A stretch of DNA of 46,810 bases from a virus. Below are positions 11,805 to 44,970 of this stretch, piece after piece. Position numbers and translations under genes: made by a program. The notes under the pieces are model-generated. The model was not told the DNA's origin, ran no database searches, and was given only the letters and a program-made list of their open reading frames with translations. How positions within the stretch are numbered: position 1 is the stretch's first letter; each line of letters begins with the position of its first letter. The stretch spans positions 1 through 46,810 of the IMG/VR virus record IMGVR_UViG_3300032322_001825; one strand, written 5' to 3'.

Positions 11805-12365
11805 ATGAAAACATTTGCAATCATCGGAGGAATAGTCCTCATACTTGGTTTATGGTTTATGGGTTCTTATAATGGTCTTGTTTCAAGCAACGAAAAAGTA
11901 ACCGGAGCTTGGTCTCAAGTTGAGACACAATACCAAAGACGTTTTGATTTAGTTCCTAACCTCGTTAGTGCTACGAAAGGCGCTATGAAGCAGGAACAGG
12001 CAGTATTCGGAGCCATCGCAGAAGCCAGAACTCGCTACGCTGGTGCGCCAGCTGGTTCAAATGAGCAGGTACAGGCTACCTCTCAATACGAAGGAGCCTT
12101 GGCTCGTCTTCTTGTGGTGATGGAAAACTACCCTCAGCTTAAGAGTTTAGAAAATGTTACAGCTCTTACTGATGAACTTTCCGGAACAGAGAATAGAGTT
12201 GCGGTTGCTCGTGATAGATACAATGAAGTGGTACGCATTCATAACACTATGATTAAGCGCTTCCCACGAAACCTCTTTGCTTCTATGTTTGGATTTGAAG
12301 CAAGAGAATTCTTTGCCTCAGTCGGAGATGCGAAGACAGCACCAACAGTTAATTTAGATTTATAA
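11805..12365 (+). CDS. lemA: LemA family membrane protein
   Basis: 186 aa, normal length for LemA. An N-terminal membrane segment (FAIIGGIVLILGLWFMGSY) is followed by the family signature (YNGLVSSNEKVTGAWSQVE, then RRFDLVPNLV), the FGAIAEAR region, and the helical stretch ending RFPRNLFASMFGFEAREFF. LemA proteins are anchored four-helix bundles facing outward from the membrane. Their function is poorly known but they are usually paired with a TPM-domain protein, exactly as here. This looks like a cellular envelope gene pair acquired by the phage. Confidence 0.93.
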   Translation: MKTFAIIGGIVLILGLWFMGSYNGLVSSNEKVTGAWSQVETQYQRRFDLVPNLVSATKGAMKQEQAVFGAIAEARTRYAGAPAGSNEQVQATSQYEGALARLLVVMENYPQLKSLENVTALTDELSGTENRVAVARDRYNEVVRIHNTMIKRFPRNLFASMFGFEAREFFASVGDAKTAPTVNLDL

Positions 12366-12383
12366 AACATATAATAAATTATT

Positions 12384-12917
12384 ATGAAAAAAGGATTTAC
12401 TTTAATTGAATTGTTAGTTGTCATCGCAATCGCTGGTGTATTAGTAAGTATTATCATTTCTTACAATAAGAATGGTGGTGTAGATGGTAGCCAACTTGGG
12501 ACCATTGGCACTATGAATGAAGTTTTTTATCCAGAAGCTACCAATTACGCAGTTGATACATCAGGAGTCCTCACCGCTGACCAACTAGCTACGCTTAATA
12601 CAAAGCTTGGAGCTATCCAGGGTAAAGAAATAGGTGTAGCAGTTGTAAAAACTACAGCTCCACTTTCTATAGAAGAGTATGGAATAAAACTCGCTGAGAA
12701 ATGGAAGGTAGGAAATGCTGACCTAGATAATGGAGCAATAATTATTATTGCCACAGAAGATAGGAAGGTGCGCATCGAGGTAGGGTATGGTCTCGAAGGA
12801 GACATCAACGATGCGAAAGCAGGGCGTATTATTGATAACCATATGCTTCCATCACTTAAAAAAGGTGATTGGTATGGTGCCATTGTCGGTGGCATTGATG
12901 GTATAAATGCAGAATAA
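12384..12917 (+). CDS. Type IV pilin leader fused to TPM (YgcG-type) domain
   Basis: 177 aa. The first 25 residues (KKGFTLIELLVVIAIAGVL) are a textbook class III prepilin signal: cleavage expected after Gly4, Phe at +1, Glu at +5 and a hydrophobic helix. A short linker leads into a complete TPM domain (residues about 43-176), with TNYAVDTSGVLTADQLATLN, GAIIIIATEDRKVRIEVGYG and AKAGRIIDNHMLPSLKKGDW. Normal TPM proteins have a Sec signal, a later membrane helix and a Gly-rich tail. Here the pilin helix replaces the signal, and the tail appears on the next gene. It may enter the host pilus machinery. Confidence 0.92.
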   Translation: MKKGFTLIELLVVIAIAGVLVSIIISYNKNGGVDGSQLGTIGTMNEVFYPEATNYAVDTSGVLTADQLATLNTKLGAIQGKEIGVAVVKTTAPLSIEEYGIKLAEKWKVGNADLDNGAIIIIATEDRKVRIEVGYGLEGDINDAKAGRIIDNHMLPSLKKGDWYGAIVGGIDGINAE

Positions 12918-14031: not shown

Positions 14032-14271
14032 ATGAGTCAAAAACAGCTAGAAAGTAGACCGTTATCAGTGAAAGAATATTGTCCTATGAGACCTGACTTT
14101 CATGTGAAGACAATAATTCAGGAGCGTGTTAACCGCGAAGCCGATGCCGAGTGGGGTCGCACTCCGAGTCATGAAATTCCGAAAGACATCAAGTACCCAG
14201 CTCGTTCTCTTCCGGATAATATGACAACAAGAACAGCACTGTACGCGTTCCTTAAAGAATTGAAACCTTAA
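14032..14271 (+). CDS. Hypothetical protein (79 aa)
   Basis: ATG 14032 (MSQKQLESRPLSVKEYCPMR) lies 4 nt after the previous stop. The earlier frame from 13888 overlaps the zinc-ribbon gene and is rejected. The protein is hydrophilic, with DFHVKTIIQERVNREADAEW and a C-terminal TTRTALYAFLKELKP. No motif recognised. Last gene before the tRNA-like element at 14306. Confidence 0.6.
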   Translation: MSQKQLESRPLSVKEYCPMRPDFHVKTIIQERVNREADAEWGRTPSHEIPKDIKYPARSLPDNMTTRTALYAFLKELKP

Positions 14272-14280
14272 AAACTAAAG

Positions 14281-14428
14281 TCGTGTATCCCAGCCCCTCT
14301 AGTTCAATGCGGTAGCTCAGTTGGTAGAGCATGGAGTGTACTCCTTAGGGTATGTATGATGTGCATACATCCGTACACACTGCGCGTTGGTTCAAGTCCA
14401 ATCTTCATTGAACGAGGGCTTGGGTACA
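14281..14428 (+). repeat. Long interrupted stem enclosing tRNA-like element 1
   Basis: 5' segments GTTCAATG (14302-14309) and CCCAGCCCCTC (about 14289-14299) pair with CATTGAAC (14405-14412) and GAGGGCTTGGG (14413-14423), with one C/C mismatch and one bulge. A further six pairs (CGTGTA with TACATG) extend the stem to about 14282 and 14429. More than 20 base pairs therefore close the tRNA-like top. Confidence 0.6.
14306..14410 (+). tRNA. tRNA-like element 1, not a canonical tRNA
   Basis: Canonical parts: TA then D-arm GCTC-AGTTGGTA-GAGC (14313-14330), T-arm GTTGG-TTCAAGT-CCAAT (14386-14402), and acceptor-like AATGCGG/CTTCATT (14306-14312 / 14403-14409, one mismatch). Non-canonical: 55 nt lie between D and T arms instead of about 27-45, with no credible 7-nt anticodon loop. 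Instead GTGTAC/GTACAC and ATGTATG/CATACAT form one long arm. No CCA is encoded. It may be a decoy, a processed RNA or a decayed tRNA. Confidence 0.5.
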
Positions 14429-14493
14429 TGACAAAGTTTAAAAACTTGTTCGGTACTCAGGTCGCATTATTAAAATTAATCAATAAAAATTAT

Positions 14494-14766
14494 ATGTTAG
14501 AAATTTTTATGGGTCTCGCGATGTTGATTTCCGCTAACTTCGGAAATTATACAACTGCAACTGTGCCAGGAGAATACTACGAATTCGTAGCTCCAGTACA
14601 ATGTCAGGATAATCGTTCATGGACAGTTGCAGTGCGCTATAAAGTAGATGTAGATGGAAAGCATAAACAACATTTGCAAGTTCGAAATCTTCCTGGTTGT
14701 GTAACAACTAAAGCCTTCATTGATGAAGCTGTAGTTGACCCTTACATAACTGTAATTGGACGGTAG
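14494..14766 (+). CDS. Small secreted or membrane-anchored protein (90 aa)
   Basis: ATG 14494 in AAAAATTATATG context; an earlier frame from 14356 would run through the tRNA-like element. The N-terminus MLEIFMGLAMLISANFGNYT looks like a signal peptide or anchor. The rest is beta-rich with two cysteines (VQCQDNRSWTVAVRYK and NLPGCVTTKAF) that could form a disulfide outside the cytoplasm. No family recognised. An envelope or exported role would match the LemA cluster and the secreted lysozyme nearby. Confidence 0.65.
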   Translation: MLEIFMGLAMLISANFGNYTTATVPGEYYEFVAPVQCQDNRSWTVAVRYKVDVDGKHKQHLQVRNLPGCVTTKAFIDEAVVDPYITVIGR

Positions 14767-14774
14767 TTAACTGG

Positions 14775-14845
14775 TGTCTCAACGCAGGGTGACATTATTA
14801 TTTTAGTGATAACTATTATAATTAATTTCCCTTGCGATTGAGACA
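14775..14845 (+). ncRNA. Large hairpin in leader of 14879
   Basis: The left arm TGTCTCAA-CGCA-GGG (14775-14789) pairs with CCC-TTGCG-ATTGAGACA (14829-14845), leaving two single-base bulges, around a 39-nt AT-rich loop. No T-run follows, so it is not a classical terminator. It is comparable in style to the hairpins at 22361 and 23902. Confidence 0.5.
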
Positions 14846-14878
14846 GCAACAATCTTATCAAATTAATAAATTAATCTT

Positions 14879-15295: not shown

Positions 15296-15397
15296 TATAG
15301 GAATGTTATAATAAACAAGTTCCTATACATCGAGGTCTTGGGACCAAGTTCGCCTCCAAAGCTTACTAGGCAGGTTCGAATCCTGAACGGTGTGCCA
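15296..15397 (+). tRNA. tRNA-like element 2 with 5' hairpin (possible tRNA-Trp relic)
   Basis: The hairpin TATAGGAA/TTCCTATA (15296-15327) is followed by a 71-nt tRNA-sized unit (15327-15397). Acceptor ACATCGA pairs with ACGGTGT at 6 of 7 positions; then come discriminator G and an encoded CCA. T-arm is CAGG-TTCGAAT-CCTG. The segment CTCCAAA (15354-15360) equals the anticodon loop of tRNA-Trp, but its flanking stem has two mismatches. The D-arm is reduced to GGTC-TTGG-GACC. It could be a decayed or unusual tRNA, or a mimic; standard tRNA function is doubtful. Confidence 0.45.
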
Positions 15398-15925: not shown

Positions 15926-17020
15926 ATGTTAGGAAAAATCAACAAATATATTGAAGAAGGTTTAGTTACAGAACAGGTTCATCCAGAGAATCCTGATGTA
16001 AAAATCTATAACTACACTCAGAAGTGCCAATTTGAAGGTGCCTGGGATGAGGTCACGATGCAGTGTCGTGGTCTTATCTTTGATACCAAGACCGGCAAAC
16101 AACTTTCCAATCCTTTTCCTAAATTTTTTAATTACGAGGAACACATAGCGAAAGGCTTAAGTGTTCCACATGAAACACCAATCATACATCAGAAGTTTGA
16201 TGGCTCTTTGGGTATTTTATACTGGCTTAATGACCTACCATGGATAGCAACTCGTGGTTCTTTTGCTTCCGACCAGGCTATCTGGGCGACTAATTGGTTC
16301 CGATTGAACGCAAACTTCGAGGATTTTAATAAGGACTACACCTACCTATTCGAGATTATCTACCCTGAGAATCGCATCGTTGTCAGCTATGACTTTTCTG
16401 GACTCGCGCTCATAGCTGTCCGAGAAATAGGAGGCACGGATGTATTGGTTCTTAACCAGCTCGGAATGCACCAATTCCCTCTTTTAAGGGGTCCATTTGA
16501 GTATCCGATGCTCTACAAGCCAACCGACTTCGCTGCCCTTAAGGCAATGAACCTAGCGAATCAGGAGGGGTTTGTGATTCACTATCCGAATGCTGACCTA
16601 CGACTGAAGATTAAGTTCGAAGACTATGTGAGATTGCATAAAATCATGACTGGTCTCTCAGCCATCGGCATCTGGGAAGCCCTTCGCGAAGGCAAAGAGA
16701 TAAGTATAGATAACGTACCAGATGAATTCTTTAAGTGGTTTACAGAAACTAAAGATGGATTGAATAATAAATTCAGTGATATTTGGCATGAGGCATACAA
16801 AGATTACCTTGATATAACAGAAAGTCTTGGTTACCCTATGGCTCCTAGAGGTTTACGGTTTCACGGACAAACAAGGAAACATTTTGCTGATAAGGCTGCA
16901 CAAACAAAATACCCATCAATATTATTCGCTATGTTAGATGGCAAAGATTATAGAGAAATCATTTGGAAGATGATACGTCCGCGTGGTCAGCAGACGTTTA
17001 AAGTAGATATAGATAGTTAA
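15926..17020 (+). CDS. rnl1: T4 Rnl1-type RNA ligase
   Basis: 364 aa, same size class as T4 RNA ligase 1. Nucleotidyltransferase motifs are in order: motif I KFDGSLGIL with Lys90 as AMP acceptor, an ATRGSFASDQA element, motif III/IIIa YLFEIIYPENRIVVSY, motif IV EGFVIHYP and motif V LKIKFEDYV. A helical C-terminal domain follows, as in Rnl1. These enzymes seal broken RNA, classically tRNA anticodon loops cut by host defence nucleases, with a partner kinase/phosphatase. That partner lies three genes downstream (18165). Confidence 0.93.
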   Translation: MLGKINKYIEEGLVTEQVHPENPDVKIYNYTQKCQFEGAWDEVTMQCRGLIFDTKTGKQLSNPFPKFFNYEEHIAKGLSVPHETPIIHQKFDGSLGILYWLNDLPWIATRGSFASDQAIWATNWFRLNANFEDFNKDYTYLFEIIYPENRIVVSYDFSGLALIAVREIGGTDVLVLNQLGMHQFPLLRGPFEYPMLYKPTDFAALKAMNLANQEGFVIHYPNADLRLKIKFEDYVRLHKIMTGLSAIGIWEALREGKEISIDNVPDEFFKWFTETKDGLNNKFSDIWHEAYKDYLDITESLGYPMAPRGLRFHGQTRKHFADKAAQTKYPSILFAMLDGKDYREIIWKMIRPRGQQTFKVDIDS

Positions 17021-17379: not shown

Positions 17380-17853
17380 ATGGACCCAATAGAAGAATTT
17401 CTAAGACATTCAAATTACATAGAAGGCGAATACAGTGAAGAAGCCTATGAAGATGCTAAGAAAGCATGGGATTATTTGATATCTCAGAATGTTCTAACGC
17501 TTGATGTTATCTGTAAAACTCACAAGATACTAATGGAACGCAGACCTCTTGAAGAAAAATACAAGGGTCACTTCCGTGAGATTCCTGTGTATGTAGGACG
17601 AAGAGAGTGTACTAGCTGGAAAATGGTACCAATGCTTCTACAGAATTGGGTGTTCGAAACTATGCGTGCGCACCCAAAAGTTGATTCTATTGACCTTCAT
17701 GTTAAGTACGAGAAAATCCATCCGTTCGCGGATGGCAATGGTCGTACTGGTCGGATGTTCATGAATTGGACCAGGCTTAAAAGAAATAATGAACCCCTCC
17801 TTATAATTCACGAAGGCGAAGAGCAACGTGAATATTATGGATGGTTTAAATAG
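17380..17853 (+). CDS. Fic domain protein with inhibitory motif
   Basis: 157 aa. The Fic core motif is intact: HPFADGNGRTGR (His114 to Arg125), with the conserved catalytic His, phosphate-binding NG and Arg. The flap FREIPVYVG lies at about 65-73. Near the N-terminus SNYIEG (residues 11-16) matches the (S/T)xxxE(G/N) inhibitory helix of class II Fic proteins, so the enzyme is probably self-inhibited until activated. Fic enzymes transfer AMP or similar groups from nucleotides to target proteins. In a phage the target may be a host factor. Located 4 nt after the previous gene. Confidence 0.92.
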   Translation: MDPIEEFLRHSNYIEGEYSEEAYEDAKKAWDYLISQNVLTLDVICKTHKILMERRPLEEKYKGHFREIPVYVGRRECTSWKMVPMLLQNWVFETMRAHPKVDSIDLHVKYEKIHPFADGNGRTGRMFMNWTRLKRNNEPLLIIHEGEEQREYYGWFK

Positions 17854-17854
17854 T

Positions 17855-18163
17855 ATGAAAAAGATTAACGAATTTTCTCCAGATGCCTTTGCAAAGTTGA
17901 TGAATGAATTGATAGATATTCATCAAAAGAAAAACCACGACTACGCTGGTGGTGATTACCTATCTGACTTGATTGCAAGTAGGAGAATGGGTATAGTGCC
18001 TTGGAAGAACGCTCTACTTCGTATGCAACAGAAGATGAGTAGGATGGAGAGCTTTGCTAAGCAAGGCGAGTTTAAAGTAGCTGATGAAAAGGTCGAAGAT
18101 ACATTAAAAGATATGGCGGTATATAGTATTCTGTGTTTGATTCTATATAGAAACAAGAAATGA
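17855..18163 (+). CDS. DUF1599 / nucleotide-modification-associated-like protein (102 aa)
   Basis: ATG 17855 is 1 nt after the Fic stop. The pattern KKNHDYAGGDYLSDLIASRR, GIVPWKNALLRMQQKMSRM and VADEKVEDTLKDMAVYSILC is that of DUF1599-type helical proteins related to MazG-like nucleotide pyrophosphatases (conserved Lys-Asn-DYA, Arg/Met helix, DE..DTL.D.A). It may act on nucleotides or on a modified base pathway. The last codon is followed by TGA overlapping the region before the next ATG. Confidence 0.8.
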   Translation: MKKINEFSPDAFAKLMNELIDIHQKKNHDYAGGDYLSDLIASRRMGIVPWKNALLRMQQKMSRMESFAKQGEFKVADEKVEDTLKDMAVYSILCLILYRNKK

Positions 18164-18164
18164 T

Positions 18165-19037
18165 ATGTCAAAATTAATTATGCTTTCAGGTCTTCCTGGT
18201 TCCGGAAAATCTACGAAGGCGAAAGAAATAGTAGCGCAAGGGAACTGGATACGAGTAAATCGCGACCTACTTAGAACAATGCTTCACTTCGATAAGTTCA
18301 CCGGAAGGAATGAAGGGATGACTGTCGATGTAGAAAAATCAATCGCTCGAACAGCGCTTGTTTTAGGAAGCAATGTAGTCGTTGACGATACGAATCTCAA
18401 TCCGAAAAATAAAGAAATGTGGAAGAGTATTGCGAAAGATTGCAATGCTCAATTTGAACATATCCATATTAATACATCACCACAGGATTGTATTAACAGG
18501 GATATCATCAGACACAATAGTGTCGGTAGAGAAGTCATATTAAATATGGCTCTTCAAAGTGGTATTTATGAGCATAAGAGTGATAAAGGTTTTGTACTTT
18601 GTGACCTTGATGGTACATTGTGCGACATTAAACACCGACTCTGTTATGTAAAAGTTCCAGAAGGTGAGAAGAAAGACTGGAAGAAGTTCTTTGACGAAAT
18701 TAGAAACGACACTCCAAGACCAGAAGTCGTGGAGCTAGTTAACAATTTTGCCAGAGAAGGGCATCCAATTATTTTCGTATCTGCAAGACCGGATACTTAC
18801 AAAGCCGAGACAACTCTCTGGCTTCTTGATAATTTTAAGGCTCCATATTTCACTTTGATTATGAGAAGTGGTCAGGATAAAAGACCGGACACTGAAGTAA
18901 AGCGCGAGATGTACGAGAAGTATTTTAAAAACAAATACCCTGTTCACACTGTGATTGATGACCGCCCTAGTGTTATTCGAATGTGGAGAGAAGAAGGTTT
19001 GAATGTAATAGATGTTGGAGGTGGAGTAGAGTTCTAA
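18165..19037 (+). CDS. pseT: T4-type polynucleotide kinase / 3'-phosphatase
   Basis: 290 aa, close to T4 Pnkp (301). The N-terminal kinase has P-loop GLPGSGKST (9-17), lid region and VVVDDTNLNPKN. The C-terminal HAD phosphatase has DLDGTLCDIKHR (nucleophile Asp147), VSARPDTYK and VIDDRPSVIRMW. It heals RNA ends (5'-OH to 5'-P, and removes 2',3'-cyclic or 3'-phosphate) so that the Rnl1-type ligase at 15926 can seal them. The two enzymes form the classical phage tRNA-repair pair. The 3' end overlaps the convergent nuclease gene by 4 nt, with no terminator between. Confidence 0.94.
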   Translation: MSKLIMLSGLPGSGKSTKAKEIVAQGNWIRVNRDLLRTMLHFDKFTGRNEGMTVDVEKSIARTALVLGSNVVVDDTNLNPKNKEMWKSIAKDCNAQFEHIHINTSPQDCINRDIIRHNSVGREVILNMALQSGIYEHKSDKGFVLCDLDGTLCDIKHRLCYVKVPEGEKKDWKKFFDEIRNDTPRPEVVELVNNFAREGHPIIFVSARPDTYKAETTLWLLDNFKAPYFTLIMRSGQDKRPDTEVKREMYEKYFKNKYPVHTVIDDRPSVIRMWREEGLNVIDVGGGVEF

Positions 19038-44778: not shown

Positions 44779-44791
44779 TTTTTTAACTACG
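44779..44791 (-). repeat. Direct repeat TTTTTTAACTACG, copy 2
   Basis: Second copy in the same leader as copy 1. Confidence 0.6.
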
Positions 44792-44817
44792 CTTTATTGC
44801 GCGAATCTGCTTGTATG

Positions 44818-44857
44818 CAGAGGGGTGATGTCCAGTCGCTTAAACACCACCACTCTG
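44818..44857 (+). ncRNA. Hairpin with AGTCGCT loop, copy 3
   Basis: CAGAGGGGTGATG (44818-44830) pairs with CACCACCACTCTG (44845-44857), 11 of 13 bp, around TCCAGTCGCTTAAA. It shares TGATGTCYAGTCGCT with copy 1. The core is on the plus strand although local transcription is leftward, unlike copies 1 and 2, so a DNA-level role is possible. Confidence 0.5.
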
Positions 44858-44870
44858 AACACAAACGAAA

Positions 44871-44928
44871 AACAGCGGAACAAATTAATATAGAGATTTC
44901 TCTCATAATTAAATTTGTATCCGCTGTT
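44871..44928 (-). repeat. Large inverted repeat with nested hairpin
   Basis: AACAGCGGA-A-CAAATT (44871-44886) matches AATTTG-TAT-CCGCTGTT (about 44911-44928) in inverse, with an inner AGAGA-TT-TCTCT palindrome (44892-44903). It starts about 35 nt after the predicted start of transcription from the promoter at 44971. Confidence 0.6.
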
Positions 44929-44970
44929 CTTCAGTCAGAGACAACTATAAAGCTGTAATGAACTATCTAA

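Follow-up and report, generated by a model that had tools for sequence, protein, structure and literature searches.

The DNA analysed here (hereafter the window) is a virus record of 46,810 bases from an uncultured phage, in which a tRNA-like element is present at positions 14280–14432 on the plus strand. The element lies as a single copy within a 222-nt intergenic gap, most neighbouring gaps being shorter than 110 nt, and the flanking genes are encoded on the same strand, the upstream gene ending at 14271 and the start chosen for the downstream gene being the ATG at 14494 (Table 1). Most genes of this phage have AT-rich leaders devoid of Shine-Dalgarno sequences, a pattern to which this ATG conforms. 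A longer listed open reading frame, 14356–14766, overlaps the element and starts within the 55-nt insert described below; one of the three plus-strand frames is open across the element, with no gene recognised in it. The product of the downstream gene gave no Pfam match over cut-off, and no relatives were retrieved when it was used as bait.

Table 1. Coordinates of the element, its parts and other features of the window.
Feature	Position	Strand	Basis or remark
Basal stalk, 5' strand, continuous with acceptor stem	14280–14309	+	MFE pairing with the 3' strand; flank duplex
Acceptor stem proper, 5' strand AATGCGG	14306–14312	+	Rfam tRNA alignment; 6 of 7 pairs standard
D arm, GCTC-AGTTGGTA-GAGC, T8 A9 just before	14315–14330	+	Rfam tRNA alignment; pair probability 0.91
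55-nt insert replacing anticodon arm; more than one hairpin possible, 7-nt anticodon loop absent	14331–14385	+	Folds, shuffles
T arm, GTTGG-TTCAAGT-CCAAT	14386–14402	+	Rfam tRNA alignment; pair probability 0.69–0.84
Segment not followed by a CCA end	14403–14409	+	Sequence, Rfam alignment
Basal stalk, 3' strand	14406–14432	+	MFE
14-nt near-direct repeats flanking the element	14263–14276, 14433–14446		12 of 14 identical
Downstream gene, 90 aa	14494–14766	+	Start chosen by AT-rich leader resembling other genes here
Strong hairpin directly after downstream gene	14772–14847	+	z = -6.95; no clear T run
Degenerate tRNA-like sequence	15326–15397	+	tRNA-Trp-like CTCCAAA loop, T arm, encoded CCA
Rnl1-type RNA ligase	15926–17020	+	phrog_562, E = 2.5e-64; T4-type relatives
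Fic protein	17380–17853
Protein right at the DUF1599 cut-off	17828–18163
Pnkp-type polynucleotide kinase/phosphatase	18165–19037	+	Pfam HAD_PNKP, E = 3.4e-31; AAA_33
LemA-family protein	11805–12365	+
TPM-domain protein	12384–12917	+
Two tandem long hairpins ahead of capsid gene cluster	44780–44945	-	z = -9.5

Genes for an Rnl1-type ligase and a Pnkp-type kinase/phosphatase are located 1.5–4.6 kb downstream of the element, and together make up a T4-like tRNA-repair pair. Phage tRNA-repair enzymes counteract PrrC (PMC2610378), and the proximity of the two genes makes tRNA cleavage relevant to this phage, without tying the RNA of the element to it. The degenerate tRNA-like sequence situated 0.9 kb downstream of the element is a candidate attachment site, or else a relic. 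Upstream, the LemA-family and TPM-domain proteins are encoded adjacently. A Ro60/TROVE domain was found in none of the 40 proteins scanned.

A match to the Rfam tRNA model (RF00005) was obtained at 14306–14410, scoring 34 bits where the cut-off is 29, despite a large insert between the D and T arms, thereby confirming the original prediction of canonical arms at this locus. Of the two kinds of search suggested with that prediction, it was the covariance search that recovered the element; ARAGORN, run on the window, did not call it a tRNA. ARAGORN and Rfam also returned no tmRNA across the whole window. The bases that fold the elbow, as read from the sequence, are complete (T8/A14, G15/C48, G18–G19 with TTC, and T54/A58), and together with the D and T arms (14313–14330 and 14385–14402) they are those of a tRNA. 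The acceptor end is altered: AATGCGG faces CTTCATT with one C·T mismatch and one G·T pair, and, in place of a 7-bp stem with a free 3' end for CCA, the helix runs on to 26 bp and CCA is absent. Since the arms and elbow-folding bases are intact while the decoding and amino-acid ends are changed, decay alone provides no ready explanation, in keeping with the earlier view that this is not a plain decayed tRNA.

The extended stem, predicted at more than 20 bp, was recovered in the minimum free energy (MFE) fold, in which 14280–14309 pairs with 14406–14432 to give 26 bp with small bulges. The 170-nt region has an MFE of -63.4 kcal/mol (z = -5.0; equalled by 0 of 200 shuffles), and the flanks alone, tested as the 32 nt outside the 7-bp acceptor so that the tRNA core was excluded, gave -30.9 kcal/mol compared with -14.7 ± 3.2 for 5000 dinucleotide shuffles (p = 2e-4), values that presuppose a site fixed before testing and hence overstate the true significance, the stems themselves having drawn attention to the site. 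Comparisons made across the window, where none of 6661 segment pairs at the same distance reached the flank energy, and against the 122 listed elements considered below agree in direction with the shuffle values, and the pairing of the stalk is far beyond chance. The acceptor extensions originally named exist, including GTTCAATG at 14302 with CATTGAAC at 14406, and CGTGTA with TACATG at the base. Midway along the stem, AGCCC/GGGCT is the predominant pairing rather than the proposed CCCA/TGGG register, which has a probability of 0.20–0.25.

The region in place of the anticodon arm was only partly as envisaged. The 55-nt insert is present, as are both of its proposed stems (GTGTAC at 14336 with GTACAC at 14373, and ATGTATG at 14352 with CATACAT at 14364), but the GTGTAC/GTACAC arm has an ensemble pair probability of approximately 0.1 and costs 1.4 kcal/mol to force. 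The best fold of the insert is a GGAG/CTCC hairpin, near-equal in energy to this alternative, and the insert alone is no more stable than its own dinucleotide shuffles (p = 0.29). A 5-bp anticodon stem with a 7-nt loop and U33 was absent, both directly and after removal of an inner piece, the latter being a strict test that also demanded a purine at position 37 and that about half of the ACAGCAA-like phage tRNAs described below fail too. There is no anticodon in the element under any reading tried.

Relatives of the phage were sought in IMG/VR, where a terminase bait retrieved five and a capsid bait 24, some of them from the same contig; the portal as bait retrieved none. The element was absent from all of the lineage relatives found, although several of these records are fragments, so that absence is weak evidence, and a DNA search of phage records left it unmatched. 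Neither the element nor Rnl1 was found in a relative of nearly equal size (G023), whereas another (G027; L255 4542–4946, minus strand) encodes a 134-residue protein like the C-terminal part of Rnl1, without the ligase core. Ordinary tRNAs are present in five relatives, and a weak 118-nt match near a contig end in a further record (G039) looks like the 3' portion of a tRNA. Being absent from the relatives found, the element sits in an accessory region. The exact D- and T-arm pattern occurs in five other IMG/VR contigs, two of them identical and none with a stalk, and, among bacterial genomes, in one Clostridiales MAG, as an intron-like tRNA. No description of such phage RNAs was found in the literature searched, which lay mostly outside subscription journals.

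Long inserts in the anticodon region are no rarity among phages: IMG/VR, scanned for type-I D arms with a T arm 45–75 nt beyond them, gave at least 120 stretches, a figure that carries no measure of prevalence. Among the 122 scored long-gap elements listed, the window element has by far the strongest acceptor extension (flank z = -6.0), followed among the matches listed by L127 (-3.7, with a weak absolute energy), L142 (-3.5) and L179 (-3.3); the extension in L142, from a GC-rich phage, is shorter, with about 13 bp in the fold. Sorting of the matches listed by regular expressions and strict rules, which yields approximate counts, gave about 46 with an ACAGCAA-like motif and small hairpin, about 18 marked by an AAGGACC-like motif, and a rest of mixed kind. 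The ACAGCAA-like sequences (L127 4649, L134 471, L143 1356, L145 474, L188 1722, L269 4984 and about 40 more) are phage tRNA genes with an insert of some 40–50 nt on the 5' side of the anticodon arm, comprising the small hairpin and the conserved motif. Removal of the insert after position 28, conducted by hand for L127, L145 and L188, restores a normal anticodon arm, and the inserts of this group have the look of very short tRNA introns that form one family. Another set of tRNA-like sequences from phages (L129 2473, L138 7607, L148 11788, L157 11337, L163 136, L166 8642, L170 3693 and others) is united by an insert, TCATGGTGAAGGACCAAA..GC.GG, that is conserved and separates the D arm from the T arm, RF00005 being the sole Rfam report in the loci scanned.

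Several elements of the mixed rest (L109 1305, minus; L146 1050, plus; L174 3312, minus; L191 2696, plus) carry one long hairpin instead of the anticodon arm, have good acceptor, D and T arms, and are scored as tRNA by Rfam. Like the window element they keep the D and T arms and have the anticodon arm replaced, whereas they have a clean 7-bp acceptor where the window element has its stalk. The D and T arms and insert of the window element are like those of this hairpin-replacement group, to which it may belong, its own hairpin being ambiguous and the group itself defined by the search pattern alone. Phage records searched by BLAST gave no match to the L142, L191 or L171 element. From these scans, uncultured phages seem commonly to carry tRNA-like elements whose anticodon inserts are long; part of them are intron-like, and others apparently lack an anticodon loop. 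Such elements can escape tRNA finders, as the window element does with ARAGORN.

Comparison with known RNAs places the element closest to tRNA, with which it shares the D arm, T arm, elbow bases and a score over the RF00005 cut-off, and from which it differs in lacking an anticodon loop or CCA, in its 26-bp stalk and in being negative by ARAGORN. The bacterial Y RNA YrlA (RF02553) is about 90–150 nt in length, with two ends that form a long stem and a tRNA-like module (PMC8394870), features that are both present in the fold of the window element; in some bacteria it is also located in RNA-repair operons. In YrlA the acceptor arm, like the D and T arms, has its counterpart inside the module, so that the long stem is something other than a continued acceptor; in the window element it is the acceptor that is extended. 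Identity with YrlA was rejected, the covariance score being 11.8 bits against a cut-off of 69, and 13 of the 14 control genomes yielded matches equally weak. A tRNA fold is likewise put to use outside ordinary decoding in tmRNA and in the tRNA-like structures of viruses, but the window element has neither a chargeable 3' end nor an mRNA-like part.

The most economical reading of these data is a tRNA mimic that binds an elbow-recognising factor, since the tRNA score exceeds the cut-off despite the insert, the elbow bases are complete while the anticodon and acceptor ends are altered, the stalk is beyond chance and the strongest of those listed, the flanking genes share its strand and leave a gap wider than most nearby, and a hairpin-for-anticodon design is found in elements of other phages (L109, L146, L174 and L191). 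The element is accordingly proposed, tentatively, to be a phage-encoded, non-decoding mimic, its elbow intact and its acceptor end concealed by the stalk beneath; it is probably an imitation of a tRNA and not a working one. If transcribed from the plus strand, the RNA is predicted to fold as a normal tRNA elbow atop a helix that extends the acceptor stem, with a hairpin insert for the anticodon arm. The elbow of tRNA is recognised by the ribosome, RNase P, T-boxes and many proteins, and is mimicked by some viral tRNA decoys (PMC4810234), and we infer that here it would be presented to a host factor of this kind, as a decoy or tether. For RNase P, the elbow is the point from which a fixed distance is gauged along the stack of T and acceptor stems (PMC4919913). 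An elbow on a continuous helix, which would conceal the end used by RNase P and for CCA addition, may offer the first contact without a normal end. The same helix might allow RNase III or a similar double-strand nuclease to free the RNA from a polycistronic transcript. Counted against the mimic are the absence of the element from the relatives found, the shuffle-like fold of the insert and the failure to find Ro60/TROVE in the proteins scanned.

The structure could act in cis instead, as a leader of the downstream gene that protects or matures its mRNA, for example as an RNase III site, with the second hairpin past the gene as its counterpart. The element ends 61 nt before the ATG, and it is the strong hairpin following the same gene that renders this alternative the more serious; a processing signal, as originally suggested, is possible, the evidence being neutral as to the packaging signal also suggested. 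A cis-acting stem has no need of an intact tRNA elbow, though, and the gene concerned is without a known Pfam family or relatives; this explanation, less likely than the mimic, is nonetheless a serious rival. Somewhat less likely again is that the element is a functionless relic, either a captured tRNA gene disrupted when palindromic DNA inserted into it, or a small insertion element whose ends are inverted. The degenerate, CCA-bearing tRNA-like sequence downstream, the near-direct repeats that flank the element and its absence from the relatives found would all be accommodated by such an origin, but the undecayed D and T arms and elbow bases would not, nor would a stalk improbable by chance in an element present once in the record.

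The repair genes raise two further alternatives. A pre-tRNA that bears an anticodon-arm intron, is cleaved by a nuclease and is then sealed by Pnkp and Rnl1 of the phage would suit both the nearby genes and the short intron-like inserts at this place in many phage tRNAs. It is nevertheless very improbable, as no removal of an inner piece yields the 5-bp stem, 7-nt loop, U33 and purine 37, the acceptor is mismatched with its end buried in the stalk, and the ACAGCAA-type motif of the intron-like group is missing. Anticodon nucleases cut within the anticodon loop, and the original proposal of a mimic for such host nucleases, least probable of the readings considered here, is not supported, as that loop was neither found nor rebuilt. 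A decoy of this kind would operate alongside the T4-type repair pair, phage tRNA repair being known to counter PrrC (PMC2610378); yet in 20 Rnl1-bearing records searched, tRNA matches longer than 110 nt numbered three, from two records.

Phage tRNA genes are usually viewed as providing extra decoding capacity, or replacements for tRNAs cut by host defence systems, and an element that retains the elbow alone suggests that phages use tRNA mimicry as a tool in its own right. As a speculative and rather improbable extension of the tRNA-mimic reading, phages might encode a whole class of elbow-keeping, hairpin-for-anticodon mimics by which a host factor that binds elbows, RNase P for instance, would be titrated or tethered. 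The window element would be an extreme member of this class, with the stalk making it an uncleavable analogue of an RNase P substrate. If part of the long-insert elements are functional, which host factor they bind becomes a testable question.

Elsewhere in the window, two long hairpins stand in tandem ahead of the capsid gene cluster (Table 1), the first of which, having a T run after it, may be a terminator. The same gap in relatives L220, L215 and L221 contains paired hairpins of different sequence, with some bases in common (TTAAGCGACTGG in the window and L221).
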